This document shows positions 3,325 through 9,913 of a stretch of DNA of 64,000 nucleotides, one piece after another. Where the stretch lies: the NCBI GenBank assembly GCA_003165595.1, contig PLWQ01000020.1, forward strand, positions 83,335 through 147,334. Reading direction: 5' to 3'. Source of the stretch: Fibrobacterota bacterium. Lineage in GTDB: Bacteria > Fibrobacterota > Chitinivibrionia > Chitinivibrionales > FEN-1185. Below the pieces are notes generated by a model. It was not told the origin of the DNA. It did not search any database and saw only the letters and a program-made list of their open reading frames with translations. How positions within the stretch are numbered: position 1 is the stretch's first letter; every line of letters starts with the position of its first letter. The translations under genes were made by a program, and so were the position numbers.

Positions 3325-4563
3325 ATGAAACTGAGCGTTGCCTACACATTTGAGCCCGGCATCATTCCCTTGCTTGCCGCATTTCCAGAAGTCAAAGAAC
3401 TGTACGGCAAGCTGTCGCGCGATATCATCGGCGGAGGGCGATCTACCATAACCCTTCGTCCCACGACACATCGGGCCCTTGCCTCCTCCGTTGCCCAGGC
3501 GCATCGTCATGGGCTTTCCTTTAATTATCTCATTAACGGCGCCTCCCTCTACGGAATGGAGCAAACCAGGCGGGGCCAGGCCGCAATCCGCCGCCAGCTC
3601 GACATGCTTGCCGGTATCGGCGTGGACGCGGTGACGGTCGCTTCGCCTTACCTGTTGCGTCTTGTCAAGAAGCAGTACCCCTCGTTCAAGGTGCGGGTGG
3701 GCGTTTTTGCGCTTGTGGATACGCCGCTCAAAGTTCGCCAGTGGGAAGCCATGGGCGCGGATACCATTTGCGTGAGCGCCATCGCATGCAACCGCGACTT
3801 TGAGAAGCTCGACAACCTCAAACGGGCATCGAAAGGTGAATTGCAGCTTATCGTGAATGCGAGCTGCCTGCTGGGATGCTGCTATGAACCCACGCACATG
3901 CACCTGCTTACGCAGAGTTCCATGCGCAGGGGAGGGAGGCGCGGGTTTTGTCTCGACTATTGCTTTCTCAATTGCTCGTCCGCCAAGCTGAAAGACCCTA
4001 CCCTTTTCCTCCGCGCAACGTGGATACGTCCCGAAGATCTTCACCTGTACGAAGAGATCGGATTTCACTCCTTCAAGATTGTGGAGCGATCGTGCCCCGG
4101 AGATTTGCTCCTCAAGCGCGTCGCCGCGTATGCACGCCGGTCGTTTAGCGGGAATCTCCTCGAAATTGCCGGACCTGTTGCGCAAATCAAGCGTGAGCAG
4201 GGAACTCCGATGAGTCAAAGGATGCGGATGATTGGGACGATGCTGCGGCCCTGGTACGTAAAGATTTCCACGCTTCTGGAAATGAAGCGGTACGCCGAAG
4301 CCGCCATCCCGCACGAGTACGATAAGGGAAAGGCGCCGGTGTATATCGAGAACGCCGCGCTTGAGGGATTCGTGGAAGGGATGCGCAATCGGAAATGTTC
4401 GGGGCTGGACTGCACGCTCTGCGGCTATTGTGAATCGAAGGCGAAAGAGGCGGTGAGCATTGATGAATCGTACCGGGCCGGCACCCTCGCGCGAGCGGAA
4501 AAGTTGGACAGGGGGCTTGTCACCAGCTCGCACTGGCTTTCCGGGAGACGGCCCCGATCCTGA
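3325..4563 (+). CDS. U32-family (UbiU/UbiV-like) Fe-S protein, putative O2-independent hydroxylase
   Basis: This 412-residue protein has the TIM-barrel-like layout of the U32 family, with alternating strands such as VDAVTVASPYLL and KVRVGVFALVDT. A Cys cluster lies at C181, C185/C186, C209, C213 and C217, in the region where UbiU/UbiV-type proteins bind a [4Fe-4S] cluster. A second cluster, C358, C363, C366 and C369 (CTLCGYC), sits near the C-terminus and resembles a ferredoxin-type site. Known U32 members (UbiU/UbiV, RlhA, TrhP) carry out oxygen-independent hydroxylations. Its position beside ketosynthase, ACP, type III PKS and UbiE-like genes suggests an aromatic-ring hydroxylase here; this is inference. 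ATG 3325 is chosen for its AAAAGGGC ribosome site. It runs convergently into the ketosynthase gene, with 17 bases between them. Confidence 0.7.
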   Translation: MKLSVAYTFEPGIIPLLAAFPEVKELYGKLSRDIIGGGRSTITLRPTTHRALASSVAQAHRHGLSFNYLINGASLYGMEQTRRGQAAIRRQLDMLAGIGVDAVTVASPYLLRLVKKQYPSFKVRVGVFALVDTPLKVRQWEAMGADTICVSAIACNRDFEKLDNLKRASKGELQLIVNASCLLGCCYEPTHMHLLTQSSMRRGGRRGFCLDYCFLNCSSAKLKDPTLFLRATWIRPEDLHLYEEIGFHSFKIVERSCPGDLLLKRVAAYARRSFSGNLLEIAGPVAQIKREQGTPMSQRMRMIGTMLRPWYVKISTLLEMKRYAEAAIPHEYDKGKAPVYIENAALEGFVEGMRNRKCSGLDCTLCGYCESKAKEAVSIDESYRAGTLARAEKLDRGLVTSSHWLSGRRPRS

Positions 4564-4580
4564 TCTCGTGCGGCGGCCTC

Positions 4581-5957
4581 CTATTCGTATTCCTCCAGCA
4601 CCAGCCCCGCATTGTGCCCTCCGAACGCAAACGACTGCGACACCGCTTTCTTAATCGGAAATGTTTCGACGTGCCGAACGAAGTTGAGGTCGGCGATGGG
4701 CTCGTCGAGGTTCTTGCAGGCATGGGTCGTCTTGTTCTTGATGCTGAGCGCCGTTACCGCCGCTTCTATGGCGCCGCCCGCGCCTATGGTATGACCGATC
4801 AGCGATTTGGTGGAATTGACAAGGGGCTTTTTACCGAAGCAGTCGAGAATGACCCGCGCTTCAATTTCGTCGTTTGCCGTGGTGCCGGTCCCATGGCTGT
4901 TTACATAGTCGATGTCCGATAAATCAAGCCCCGCGTTCTTCAAGAGCGTCCCGAGCATCCTGCGAATGTGCACGGCCGACGGGTCCATCATCATGATGTT
5001 GTGGCCGTCAAACGATTCGGCGAAGGCCGTAATCTCGGCGACAATGGGCGCCCCGCGGTTGCGCGCGTGGGACAGCTCTTCAACAACAAGAATCGCCGCC
5101 CCGCCTTCGGCAAAAAGAAATCCGGACCGCCGTTTGTCGAACGGCCTGTTCGCGCAATCCGGGTCGTTCCCCGGATTTACCAGCGTGTGCGCGATGTCGA
5201 ATCCGCGGAAAATCCCGCCGAAGTCGTCGCCGAGGAATTCGGCGCCGCCGCACAGCGCGCAGTCGGCCAGTCCCGCGCGCACCGCGGTAAACGCGTTGCC
5301 GATGGCCACGGTGCCTGCCGAGCACGCGCAGCAAACCGTGGTATTGGGTCCGAACAGCGAATACTTGATGCCGACATTTGCCGATATGGCGTTGGGCATC
5401 GTCATGGATACGATAAACGGGTTGAACCTCGGCGGCATGCGTATTGATTCTTCGGCGTCGGCCAGGACGGTTCGCGCCGGGGCGTGCGTGCCGTCTAAAG
5501 CGAGTTGCTGCTGCACAAGAGAGAATGCCTTTGCAAGCGGTGAAACGACGTGGTTGGCCTGCGCGGCAATAAGCGACGTGAGTCCGCCAATGCCGCTGCC
5601 GCAGTACACCGCGGTGCGCTCCGGGTTGATGCCCTCAAGAGCAAAGGTGTTCTTCTTTTCGTTTTTGACCGCACGGCCGATCCGCGCACTGTCGAGAGCT
5701 TGCTGCGCGGCGCACAGCGCAAGCATGGACGACGCATCGAGCTGCATCAGTTCCACACGGCTGAGGCCAAGCGCCGGATAATCGAGAACCGGCAACGGGG
5801 CCCATATCGTTGACGTAAACTCGGCGTAGTGTCGCCAGTGCGGCGGAATGGGAGAGACCGCGGCGCGGCCGGCCAGGCAGTTGTCCCAGAACGCCGCGGT
5901 GTCTTTGGCGCCGGGGGCAATGATGCCGATACCGGTGATGACGACGCGGCGGGTCAT
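4581..5957 (-). CDS. FabF-like beta-ketoacyl-ACP synthase (cluster ketosynthase)
   Basis: A 458-residue thiolase-fold condensing enzyme of the KAS II type. The catalytic triad is visible: Cys212 in CCACSAGTVAIG, His355 in NSHGTGTT and His389 in SLIGHTIGA. FDKRRSGFLFAEGG also matches the family. The sequence is longer and more diverged than housekeeping FabF and has an inserted charged stretch near residues 95-110. It overlaps the acyl carrier protein start by four bases (ATGA), so the two are translationally coupled. With the neighbouring type III PKS it probably makes or extends the acyl starter on the dedicated ACP rather than serving bulk fatty-acid synthesis. A beta-branching or chain-initiation KS role cannot be excluded. 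Confidence 0.9.
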   Translation of the reverse strand: MTRRVVITGIGIIAPGAKDTAAFWDNCLAGRAAVSPIPPHWRHYAEFTSTIWAPLPVLDYPALGLSRVELMQLDASSMLALCAAQQALDSARIGRAVKNEKKNTFALEGINPERTAVYCGSGIGGLTSLIAAQANHVVSPLAKAFSLVQQQLALDGTHAPARTVLADAEESIRMPPRFNPFIVSMTMPNAISANVGIKYSLFGPNTTVCCACSAGTVAIGNAFTAVRAGLADCALCGGAEFLGDDFGGIFRGFDIAHTLVNPGNDPDCANRPFDKRRSGFLFAEGGAAILVVEELSHARNRGAPIVAEITAFAESFDGHNIMMMDPSAVHIRRMLGTLLKNAGLDLSDIDYVNSHGTGTTANDEIEARVILDCFGKKPLVNSTKSLIGHTIGAGGAIEAAVTALSIKNKTTHACKNLDEPIADLNFVRHVETFPIKKAVSQSFAFGGHNAGLVLEEYE

Positions 5958-6220
5958 GATGCTTTCTGTGCGGCCTTAACCTTCACATAATCGAATGCGG
6001 CGCCGACCGTCGTGAATCGGGCCGCCTCCTCATCGGAAATCTGGGTATGGAATTCCTCTTCGAGGGCCATAAGCAGGGAGACGACGTCCAGGGAATCTGC
6101 GCCGAGATCCTCTTTGAAGCGTTTGTCAAGAGTTATCGGCTGGCTGCCCGGCTTGAGAACGTCGCTGATCACTTTTGTCATGCGCTCCATTATGAGCGCG
6201 TCGGTACCGGCGATTTCCAT
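5954..6220 (-). CDS. Acyl carrier protein dedicated to the PKS cluster
   Basis: An 88-residue acyl carrier protein. The phosphopantetheine attachment site is Ser43 in EDLGADSLDVVSLLMALEEE, and the surrounding acidic helix II is typical. A longer open frame exists upstream, but ATG 6220 is preceded by AGAAGGGAT at good spacing and gives the usual ACP length. The gene is upstream of and overlaps the ketosynthase by four bases, and is divergent from the type III PKS at 6399. The 178-base divergent gap probably holds promoters for both directions. The protein should carry acyl chains between the ketosynthase and the type III PKS. Confidence 0.93.
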   Translation of the reverse strand: MEIAGTDALIMERMTKVISDVLKPGSQPITLDKRFKEDLGADSLDVVSLLMALEEEFHTQISDEEAARFTTVGAAFDYVKVKAAQKAS

Positions 6221-6398
6221 GGCGGGATCCCTTCTGTTGGAATCGGAGAAAGAGCTCTCGTGGAATGGGTGCGACCATCCCGTGGTAATAGCTATATTAT
6301 TCCTTGTTGTATGCCGCGGCCGCACAAATGCTGGCCGTCCCAACACTCAAACTAAAATAGATATTCCACCTGTTTCGACAAGGATTATTCGAGGCGAG

Positions 6399-7487
6399 AT
6401 GAAAACCCGTACAGCTTCAACCGAGGACAACTTGCTTCCCCGCATTGCCGGAGTCGGCACGGCCGTGCCGCCGTTTGTGGTGCGGCAGGAGAGAGCCGAC
6501 GCGCTCATGGCCCGCTACTACAGCGGAATCCTCAAGCCGCGCACCATGGATGTGATGCACCAGGTGCTGTCGCACCCAAGCATCAAGACAAGGCACGTCG
6601 CTGTTGACAACGAAGAACAGCTTGTCGGGCTCAAGGGCGAGAACCCGGATGCGCGCATGGATCGTTTCACCCGCTGGGCCGTTGACCTCTCGGCACAGGC
6701 CTTGACTCGCTCTCTCGCCGCGGCCGGGCTCACCGCAGGCGACATTTGCGCGATTGCGGTGAACACCTGCACCGGGTACCTGTGTCCGGGCATTTCAACG
6801 TACCTCATTGAGCGGCTCGGGCTTTCGCCGGGCGTACGCGCATTCGACTTCGTGGGAAGCGGATGCGGCGGCGCAATTCCGTGCCTGCAGGCAGGTGCCC
6901 GGCTGCTCGACGGTCCGGATGACGGCGTCGTGGCCTGCGTTTCGGTGGAGATCTGCAGCGCCACCTACCAGATGGGCGACGACATCTCCCTTGTTATTTC
7001 CAACGCGATTTTCGGAGACGGCGCGGCCGCAACCGTGCTGTCACGCAAGGGTAACGGAGTTTCGCTTGTGTCAAGTATCGGCAGGTACGATCCCGCGCTG
7101 CGCGACGACGTTCGCTACGTTTACAAGAACGGCCAGCTCCACAACAGGCTTTCCCCGCAGCTCGCAAAGGTAGTGGGCGAGGCCGTGCCGCCCATGGTCC
7201 TGGAACTCCTGTCGCGCCACGGCCTTTCCGTTGCCGCCGTCAGGCACTGGGCGGTTCATCCGGGGGGAGACAGAATACTTGAGGCGCTCAAGAGCGGGCT
7301 GGGACTTTCCGAGGAACAACTTGGGGTTTCGCGGCAGGTGCTCCTGGAATTCGGCAACATGTCGTCGCCGACGGTGGTGTTCGAACTGGAACGGATCCTC
7401 TCGTCAGGAATTGCCAAAGGAGAATGGTGCGTAATGGTGGCGTTCGGCGCGGGGTTTTCGGCGCACGCCTACCTGTTGCGGGGATGA
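6399..7487 (+). CDS. Type III polyketide synthase (chalcone synthase-like)
   Basis: This 362-residue homodimeric-type condensing enzyme has the type III PKS catalytic triad: Cys156 in FVGSGCGGAIPCLQ, His287 in WAVHPGGDRIL and Asn320 in LEFGNMSSPTVVFEL. The length matches the family. Bacterial relatives extend an acyl starter with malonyl-CoA and cyclise it to alkylresorcinols or alkylpyrones. ATG 6399 has GAGGCGAG just upstream; the frame extends further 5' but without support. Neighbouring ACP, ketosynthase, U32 and methyltransferase genes suggest a long-chain acyl starter and a modified phenolic lipid product. Its 3' end overlaps the convergent UbiE-like gene by 19 bases. Confidence 0.93.
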   Translation: MKTRTASTEDNLLPRIAGVGTAVPPFVVRQERADALMARYYSGILKPRTMDVMHQVLSHPSIKTRHVAVDNEEQLVGLKGENPDARMDRFTRWAVDLSAQALTRSLAAAGLTAGDICAIAVNTCTGYLCPGISTYLIERLGLSPGVRAFDFVGSGCGGAIPCLQAGARLLDGPDDGVVACVSVEICSATYQMGDDISLVISNAIFGDGAAATVLSRKGNGVSLVSSIGRYDPALRDDVRYVYKNGQLHNRLSPQLAKVVGEAVPPMVLELLSRHGLSVAAVRHWAVHPGGDRILEALKSGLGLSEEQLGVSRQVLLEFGNMSSPTVVFELERILSSGIAKGEWCVMVAFGAGFSAHAYLLRG

Positions 7488-8236
7488 CTGCCGCGCGTTT
7501 CGGACAGCGGTTCTGCCGCCGTGCACACGATCGCCTCCATCACACCGAAAAAGAACAGTTTAGACTGTGTTACCGGAAGCCCGTGACTCGCCATGAGCGC
7601 GTGCAGCGAGGGCCGGTCCGGAAAAACGCGGAGACTTTCGGCAATGTAGGCGTAGATTTCGGGCCTGCCATGGAGCAGGAAGCCCCATAGCCCGCCCCAG
7701 AATTTCAACAGCGTGTATTCTGCAAACGCTGCAAAAGCGTCGGAGGGCTTCGAGAAGTCAAGAAATGCAGCAGTCCCTCCGGCCTTAAGGACACGCCTCA
7801 CTTCGCGGAGCGTTTTGTCGAGATCGGGCGCATTCCTAAGAGCGTAGCCGCCGGTGACGACATCAGCCTCGTTCGCCCTGAGCGCGAGGTGTTGCATGTC
7901 CTGCAGTGAGAAGGCAACGCAGACTGGCCCGTGTCTGCCGCGTCCGAGGGCGATCATGGCCGGCGTGAGGTCGGTGCCGGCGACAAGCGCATGGGGAAAT
8001 TTTTTCGCTAGTGCAAAAGCAAGATCGCCGTTGCCCGAAGCAATGTCGATCACGCGTGGCGAATCACAAACAGGAATCCGGGATACGAGCCATTTCTTCC
8101 ATGATGAGTCCCTGCCGAATGAAAGTACGTATGTCACGATGTTGTAGCGCTTTGCGACAATACCGAATAGCCAGCGGTTATACGATCTCTTGGCGACCGA
8201 ATCCTGCAGATAATTGGCTGTTTTTTCACTGCGCAT
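7469..8236 (-). CDS. UbiE/MenG-like SAM-dependent C-methyltransferase
   Basis: A 255-residue class I methyltransferase of the UbiE family. It shows the SAM motif VIDIASGNGDLAFALA, the acidic residue in VAGTDLTPAM, the UbiE-like segment VTGGYALRNAPDLDKTLREV and the post-motif RVLKAGGTAAFLDFSKP. The N-terminal KRSYNRWLFGIVAKRYNIVTYVLSFGRD also matches the family (the F..iA..YD..N..lS.g pattern). UbiE/MenG methylate the ring of prenylated quinols. Beside a type III PKS, the likely substrate is an alkylated resorcinol or hydroquinone; this is inference. ATG 8236 gives a normal N-terminus; a GTG at 8278 would add 14 residues. It converges with and overlaps the PKS gene. Confidence 0.85.
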   Translation of the reverse strand: MRSEKTANYLQDSVAKRSYNRWLFGIVAKRYNIVTYVLSFGRDSSWKKWLVSRIPVCDSPRVIDIASGNGDLAFALAKKFPHALVAGTDLTPAMIALGRGRHGPVCVAFSLQDMQHLALRANEADVVTGGYALRNAPDLDKTLREVRRVLKAGGTAAFLDFSKPSDAFAAFAEYTLLKFWGGLWGFLLHGRPEIYAYIAESLRVFPDRPSLHALMASHGLPVTQSKLFFFGVMEAIVCTAAEPLSETRGSHPRNR

Positions 8237-8366
8237 GGCGTGATTTTTGCAAAGAAATGGATAGTGCCTGAATCCCACAGCGAGCGACTATAAGTACGTT
8301 TTAGGTCTTTGCTTCCACTGGTATCGCAGGCTTCAGGGTACCCAAACAAATTACTATCGGGTCGGC

Positions 8367-9143
8367 ATGTTTCAAATTCCTGATATGTCCAACCGCTTCT
8401 TTGCGTCCGAGCTCATGGACGACATTCACGGGTCGCAGGAAGATCTCTTTCGGACGCTGTCGCAATTTCGGGCCATTAACGCCCTGTTTTCACGATCACG
8501 AACACTTGTCAAGCGATATCTGTTTCCTCACATGCTGCGACAGGGAGACAGGCACATCGTGTGCGCAGACCTCGGCGCCGGCGGAGCCGACTTTGCCTTG
8601 TGGTTCACGCGGTGGTGCCGGGGCAAAGGACTGCGGGTTAAAATGCTGTGCGTTGACCACGACCCGCGCGTTGTTCGATTCGCACAGGAGGCATGCTCCG
8701 GGCACGATGACATTGCCGTGGTGGAGGCCTCGGCAGAATCGATCGGCGTGATCAATGGTCCCATCGACTACATTTTTTGCAACCATTTCCTGCATCACAT
8801 CGAATCCGGAAAAATCCCCGGTCTCCTCAAAACAATCCACGACACCGCCCGGTGCGGCTTTCTTCTGAACGATTTGGCCAGAAGCAAAGCGGCCTATGCG
8901 GGCTTCGGCTCGTTTTGCCGCGTCTTCTTCCGGTCCACAATGTCCTGCCGTGACGGTCTGCTCTCCATCCGGAAAGGCTTTACTAAAAGAGAAATCGCCG
9001 GTCTTGCCGCTCAGGCGGCTTTTTCGACCCCCTTTGTTGCCGGAACACTGCATCCTGCACGGGTGTTCTTGTACTGCCTTAAAGAGACGACGGAGAAGCG
9101 GAAAGTGCCGTCCGTCAACGCGGTCGCCGGGACGGGGGCATGA
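8367..9143 (+). CDS. Class I methyltransferase of the type III-PKS-associated kind
   Basis: A 258-residue Rossmann-fold methyltransferase with the motif VCADLGAGGADFALW and an acidic residue after the second strand (MLCVDHDPRVV). The stretches IFCNHFLHHI and FLLNDLARSKAAYAGF, and DGLLSIRKGFTKREI near the C-terminus, resemble methyltransferases commonly found next to bacterial type III PKS genes. From memory these are annotated only as methyltransferase-domain proteins. It probably O- or C-methylates the PKS product. An internal ATG at 8385 is an alternative start. The gene diverges from the UbiE-like gene across about 130 bases and overlaps the TPR gene by four bases (ATGA), so they are coupled. 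Confidence 0.8.
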   Translation: MFQIPDMSNRFFASELMDDIHGSQEDLFRTLSQFRAINALFSRSRTLVKRYLFPHMLRQGDRHIVCADLGAGGADFALWFTRWCRGKGLRVKMLCVDHDPRVVRFAQEACSGHDDIAVVEASAESIGVINGPIDYIFCNHFLHHIESGKIPGLLKTIHDTARCGFLLNDLARSKAAYAGFGSFCRVFFRSTMSCRDGLLSIRKGFTKREIAGLAAQAAFSTPFVAGTLHPARVFLYCLKETTEKRKVPSVNAVAGTGA

Positions 9144-9913
9144 TTGCGTCGACGCGGCGCGTTTTCCTCTGCGCCTGCGCATGCGCATTGCTGCATTCCT
9201 GGCCCGTGCGCGGGGAACCGCCGTGCAAGAGCCTGCTTGATTCCGGGGACTCGGCCTATGCGCGTTTCGACAATGCAACGGCACTCGACCGGTTCTCCCG
9301 CGCCGCGAAAGAATGCCCGGACAGGTACGAGTCGATCATGAAGGCCGCCCGCGCGTTCATCGATGCGGGTGAGGATCTGTACTCAAAAAGAGCCGAGACC
9401 CTGTATGTTCGGGGGCTCTCCTATGCCGACACCTTGCGAAGACGGTACCCCGATTCCGGACAATCATATTTCCTCACTGCTGTTGCCGCGTCAAATATCG
9501 CACAAATCAAGACCGGCGTGCAGAGGTTGCCCTTGGCAAAGATCATCGATTCCAATATCAGAAGGTCGATTGAGAAAGATCCGCAATTCGCCCCGGCATA
9601 TGTTGTGTTGGGTGCCTATTACAGGGAAGTCGCGGAATCGAACCCGATCCTTCGCGCTGTGGGCGCGATATTGTACGGATGGGTTCCCCGCGGAACACTT
9701 GCGGAATCCGAGGGCTCGCTTCTCAAGGCAACCGATCTTGCACCCCAGAGCGTCTATGCCTCTTTGGAACTTGCCCGTACCTACGTCGCCATGGGGCGTC
9801 GGAAAGAAGCAATTGAAATTCTGGAACGCATGCGAACTTTCCCGCGCGCCTGGCATCAGGATGATACCCTTAAAGCAGAGGGCCGGCGGCTGATGGCCAT
9901 CCTGAAGAAGTAA
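9140..9913 (+). CDS. Exported TPR-type protein
   Basis: A 257-residue protein with an N-terminal signal peptide (hydrophobic stretch after RR, cleavage likely near RGEP). It is rich in helix-turn-helix TPR-like units: SAYARFDNATALDRFSRAAK, FAPAYVVLGAYYREVAE and SVYASLELARTYVAMGRRKEAIEILE. The function is unknown; TPR proteins scaffold complexes in the periplasm or at membranes. Its four-base overlap with the PKS-associated methyltransferase puts it in the cluster transcript, so a role in placing or exporting the lipid product is possible but unproven. A strong promoter for the histidine kinase gene begins 12 bases after its stop. Confidence 0.75.
   Translation: MIASTRRVFLCACACALLHSWPVRGEPPCKSLLDSGDSAYARFDNATALDRFSRAAKECPDRYESIMKAARAFIDAGEDLYSKRAETLYVRGLSYADTLRRRYPDSGQSYFLTAVAASNIAQIKTGVQRLPLAKIIDSNIRRSIEKDPQFAPAYVVLGAYYREVAESNPILRAVGAILYGWVPRGTLAESEGSLLKATDLAPQSVYASLELARTYVAMGRRKEAIEILERMRTFPRAWHQDDTLKAEGRRLMAILKK

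Follow-up and report, generated by a model that had tools for sequence, protein, structure and literature searches.

Operons in which a type III polyketide synthase (PKS) gene is accompanied by genes for a methyltransferase and a FAD oxidoreductase are known from Planctomycetota and, as hidABC, from cyanobacteria (PMC10896814; PMC8086630), and in Mycobacterium and Streptomyces polyketide quinones serve to carry electrons (PMC9927152). Characterised U32 families share the cysteine motif CX6CX15CX3/4C (PMC6747719; PMC11574389), and the oxygen donor reported for UbiUV is prephenate (PMC11574389). The Fibrobacterota locus described here has a type III PKS and a U32 protein together; in open-licence PMC literature we found no earlier description of this combination, nor of a U32 peptidase in a biosynthetic gene cluster. 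It resembles the Srs, Hid (hierridin) and planctomycetal operons in having a type III PKS, one or more adjacent SAM methyltransferases and a slot for an oxidising enzyme (here, putatively, the U32 protein), but differs from them in that the U32 replaces the flavin oxidoreductase, a UbiE-like methyltransferase is added, and several members have an MMPL transporter. With the polyketide quinone (PkQ) systems of Mycobacterium and Streptomyces it shares a type III PKS, a methyltransferase and a hydroxylase (here putative), expected to give alkyl benzoquinones; unlike those, it holds a predicted Fe-S U32 in the hydroxylase position and belongs to another phylum, and its quinone is putative. Our favoured reading, which we hold to be somewhat probable, is that this cluster serves the O2-free synthesis of a methylated phenolic lipid, of the alkylresorcinol or alkyl(hydro)quinone kind, the U32 protein hydroxylating the ring.

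The window, i.e., the whole stretch of 64,000 nucleotides that was analysed, comes from a genome of 5.39 Mb (G000; 98% complete, 42 contigs), which its relatives, Chitinivibrionales/Chitinispirillaceae and Fibrobacteres MAGs, place in Fibrobacterota. The cluster begins with the gene for the U32-family protein, a candidate O2-independent lipid hydroxylase (3325-4563, + strand; 412 aa, PF01136 E=1.4e-9) with eight conserved cysteines and two predicted Fe-S clusters. On the minus strand follow a cluster-specific FabF-like ketosynthase (KS; 4581-5957; PF00109/PF02801), scoring under the housekeeping FabF cut-off, and an acyl carrier protein (ACP; 5954-6220; PF00550, TIGR00517 86.7 bits, DSL motif). 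Next come the type III PKS (6399-7487, +; PF02797, PF00195), a UbiE/MenG-like C-methyltransferase (7469-8236, -; PF01209 E=2.9e-32) and a second SAM methyltransferase (MT2) of the PRK06202 family (8367-9143, +; NF004851 144.5 bits). A TPR protein whose N terminus is signal-like (9140-9913, +) overlaps MT2 by four bases; it is an uncertain member, as only one relative (L031/L050, 48%) has a homologue adjoining the cluster. Domain matches and coordinates thus bear out the gene content given in an earlier, sequence-only reading of this DNA (U32, KS, ACP, type III PKS, UbiE-like and second methyltransferases), along with two details that it had claimed: the four-base overlap of the ACP and KS genes (5954-5957; ATGA), and an intact Cys-His-Asn triad in the PKS, identified by alignment to PKS18 (1ted) as C156, H287 and N320. 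The strands of the cluster genes alternate (+ - - + - +), so that the genes here form a conserved neighbourhood rather than one operon. No flavin hydroxylase or oxidoreductase was found within the window's cluster, the U32 standing in that place.

An orthologue of the U32 gene was found in 18 of 168 Fibrobacterota genomes and a PKS orthologue (46% identity or more, with one partial sequence) in 19, and all 18 U32 carriers have both (Fisher p ~3e-23, uncorrected for phylogeny). Within genera, too, U32 and PKS are jointly present or jointly lacking, in the contrasts G000/G001, G022/G028 and G027+G039/G031. The two genes lie no more than ~2 kb apart in 15 of the 18 carriers; elsewhere they are separated by the end of a contig, which falls within the ketosynthase gene (G019), by short contigs (G005), or by ~124 kb of a single contig (G013), where MT2 is found ~3 kb from the U32, and UbiE, MMPL, ACP, KS and AMP-binding ligase genes adjoin the PKS. 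The U32 gene is therefore tied to the type III PKS gene; had it been found mostly away from such genes, the pathway model of the sequence-only reading would have failed.

Gene order within the neighbourhood is variable: U32-ACP-KS-PKS-MT2, all co-directional, in one relative (L059), a divergent PKS/U32-MT2 arrangement in another (L055), U32-PKS-UbiE-MT2 without KS in a third (L049), and, on a Muiribacteriota contig (L066), a tight operon of U32-MT-PKS nearly end to end. The gene set is kept across many genera at 45-61% identity, and the genes flanking it in the window are mostly not kept. KS orthologues adjoin the U32 or type III PKS gene in most carriers; in some carriers no UbiE or no KS was detected. 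An MMPL transporter gene, absent from the window's cluster, lies near type III PKS/UbiE genes in L051, L052, L058, L033 and L163. Conservation of the neighbourhood together with co-occurrence rules out chance adjacency of U32 and PKS. Their distances also correlate (Mantel r 0.67, 15 genomes), as common ancestry alone could bring about.

The U32 protein has PF01136 as its sole Pfam domain. Alignment of 16 Fibrobacterota orthologues confirmed the two cysteine clusters noticed from the sequence: C181, C185, C213 and C217 are invariant, and the C-terminal C358, C363, C366 and C369 invariant or near-invariant. In domain, conserved cysteines and predicted Fe-S content the protein is like the UbiU/UbiV and TrhP/RlhA oxidases, but its spacing, a CX3C-X27-CX3C core plus a C-terminal CX4CX2CX2C, is not theirs, and the canonical motif of the characterised oxidases is absent from its clade. 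An AF2 prediction from the 16 orthologues (pLDDT 88.4, pTM 0.89) had as its top PDB fold match the archaeal U32 structure MK0906 (5d88; E 4.5e-11), at 21% identity, a protein itself uncharacterised. Our tree unites the cluster U32s (100/100), including one long-branched row (L072), within a wider clade whose members come from Omnitrophota, Elusimicrobiota, Myxococcota, Nitrospirota and others; this wider clade is split (98/98) from UbiU, UbiV (on a long branch), TrhP, RlhA and two other long U32s of the window's genome. The cluster U32 is thus, by sequence, a member of an uncharacterised U32 clade. The UbiU/UbiV-type label that it had been given does not hold, as the tree rules out orthology; moreover the U32 here is single, the cluster showing neither a UbiU-UbiV pair nor a UbiT partner. 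The label being wrong at the level of subfamily, the protein may nonetheless be an Fe-S oxidase.

Characterised U32 proteins mostly modify RNA, and there is a weak TrhP match in the N-terminal part of the cluster U32, so one could propose an RNA hydroxylase or peptidase that merely adjoins a polyketide cluster. We regard this as very improbable, and set it aside on the tree, the cysteine motif and the co-occurrence: the protein does not group with the RNA hydroxylases, as the sequence-only reading needed it not to, and has other cysteine spacing; the genome has separate U32 proteins (L001, L002) that group with TrhP/RlhA/UbiUV; and all 18 carriers have the PKS. A defence role was likewise rejected, there being no PADLOC match to the U32.

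Members of the wider clade occur in several other settings. The window's genome encodes a paralogue (~38-40% identical; G000:C6:2177-6548, L048) beside genes for a FAD oxidoreductase, a squalene-hopene cyclase and a DUF1295 protein, a possible lipid-modifying, hopanoid setting judging from these neighbours; a Myxococcota MAG (L060, U32 68% identical) has the U32-FAD pair as well. In Thermodesulfobacteriota and other MAGs (L069, L070, L071, L073) a clade U32 belongs to a conserved series of genes, for HMGL-like/homocitrate-synthase, aconitase halves, FAD protein, LuxE, LuxC, the U32 itself and a VTT-domain protein. In Omnitrophota, Elusimicrobiota and one Fibrobacterota MAG (L062, L063, L064, L068, L205) the neighbours of clade U32 genes, which are sometimes several in tandem, are B12-binding radical SAM genes.

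The task of the U32 within the pathway can be approached through relatives in which a flavin enzyme takes its place. In one Fibrobacterota genome (G020), where no cluster-type U32 orthologue was found, a contig has MT2 and UbiE (38% and 47% identical to the window's), along with a type III PKS that is more distant and a PF01494 (FAD_binding_3) monooxygenase of the UbiH/phenol-hydroxylase kind, i.e., a FAD aromatic hydroxylase, which shares 37% identity with the flavin enzyme that accompanies a type III PKS in a Deinococcus cassette; the genome is a 69% complete MAG and the 15 kb contig is possibly misbinned, its GC agreeing with that of another G020 contig. The U32 genomes have no orthologue of this monooxygenase, save for one weak match in G002. 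The Caballeronia plasmid pSBC2-3 carries the order PKS-MT-FAD oxidoreductase-ACP-KS, a version of the Srs/Hid-type cassette that shares ACP and KS with the window's cluster (PKS 36% identical, KS 31%); the hydroxylase role of its FAD enzyme is putative. A methyltransferase and a flavin oxidoreductase adjoin the PKS in five of the six plasmid records examined, and in the comparison of cassettes a PRK06202-family methyltransferase was also found adjoining FAD-type type III PKS genes. The PKS tree, in which several branches are long, places Fibrobacterota, Muiribacteriota and Caballeronia together (100/99) and the G020 PKS with Deinococcus opposite them. The only one of the 168 genomes with a PKS orthologue but without this U32 (G030) has ACP and KS, no adjacent methyltransferase, and a UbiE elsewhere in the genome. 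Since the G020 and Caballeronia cassettes have a flavin enzyme in the slot that the U32 occupies here, the replacement previously suggested gains the backing of a place-for-place swap, and the simplest reading of the sequences is that the U32 stands where a flavin enzyme otherwise would.

The U32 might instead act in the same pathway at another task, modifying the acyl starter or chain or carrying out some other redox step on the polyketide, a reading that we find doubtful but deserving of weight. Its relatives in the wider clade occupy non-aromatic lipid settings: the paralogue in its own genome adjoins squalene-hopene cyclase and FAD oxidoreductase genes, and others accompany LuxC/LuxE, homocitrate- and aconitase-like genes or lie in B12-radical SAM arrays. 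Set against these are the same two methyltransferases in G020, where an aromatic FAD hydroxylase replaces the U32, and the fact that UbiE-type methyltransferases generally act on hydroxylated rings. The cluster's UbiE-like gene is the only UbiE-family match above 65 bits in the window's genome, and within its order every genome that has a UbiE-family match above 120 bits also has a type III PKS.

What ring the PKS closes bears on the product. Among type III PKSs of solved structure, PKS18 and PKS11, both alpha-pyrone synthases, come closest in sequence, and the best NCBIfam model for the window's PKS is DpgA, at 160 bits under a cut-off of 425; a ring other than resorcinol may therefore be formed. 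On these grounds the PKS product could be an alkylpyrone or DpgA-like, and the end product a methylated pyrone lipid and no quinone. We think this unlikely: the ranking of PDB matches mirrors which bacterial enzymes have been solved, and the UbiE-like and PRK06202 methyltransferases and the swap with a FAD hydroxylase fit resorcinol/quinone cassettes.

Independence from O2 was expected to suit an anaerobic host, and here the genome of the window gave another answer, as COX1, for which CtaD is the best-scoring model (aa3-type oxidase), is present there in the company of COX2 and CtaB. A strict anaerobe is accordingly unsupported; the host may, from these genes, respire O2, and O2 independence of the pathway need not be physiologically required. 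More widely, COX1 is present in G000, G001, G011, G030 and the f11 genomes, with a fragment in G002, and CydA in G011, G030, G043, G020 and the f11 genomes, with a partial gene in G005; in 13 of the 18 U32 carriers neither was seen, several of these MAGs being incomplete. Oxidases are encoded both by the only genome with the flavin hydroxylase (G020) and by the one with the PKS orthologue but without this U32 (G030); these two cases fit the model.

The respiratory quinones of these organisms are of interest in the same connection. The futalosine genes MqnA/D are absent from the window's order (the 19 genomes searched from families f8 and f11 do have them) and G000 has no strong UbiE match besides the cluster gene, and for these reasons we considered the cluster lipid as the sole membrane quinone. 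A MenA-like prenyltransferase gene, however, directly adjoins nuoL, nuoM and nuoN in the window's genome (G000:C37:199848-206212; L202:6848-13212), and we therefore do not claim that role.

In the pathway that we propose, the FabF-like KS and the ACP would prepare an acyl starter, which the type III PKS would extend with malonyl units before closing the ring. The U32 Fe-S protein would then hydroxylate the ring, a step corresponding to that of the flavin monooxygenase in the aerobic Srs, Hid and polyketide-quinone cassettes, with the oxygen atom coming probably from prephenate, by analogy with UbiUV. C- and/or O-methylation would fall to the UbiE-like and PRK06202-like methyltransferases, and the MMPL transporter of several relatives would move the product. 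The chemistry, the order of steps, the oxygen donor, the product and any quinone role are what we infer from the genes and their neighbourhoods.

More tentatively, the cluster U32s could represent a third functional class of U32 proteins, O2-independent hydroxylases of polyketide lipids, through which polyketide (hydro)quinones would be formed under anaerobic or hypoxic conditions as membrane electron carriers, and the wider clade may hydroxylate other lipids, e.g., hopanoids. If the pathway is as proposed, phenolic lipids and polyketide quinones, for which the known pathways use flavin hydroxylases, could be made without O2, and the reach of U32 oxidases would extend beyond ubiquinone and RNA. 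It would also offer a short pathway, PKS plus U32, for reconstitution in E. coli and the study of O2-independent hydroxylation.
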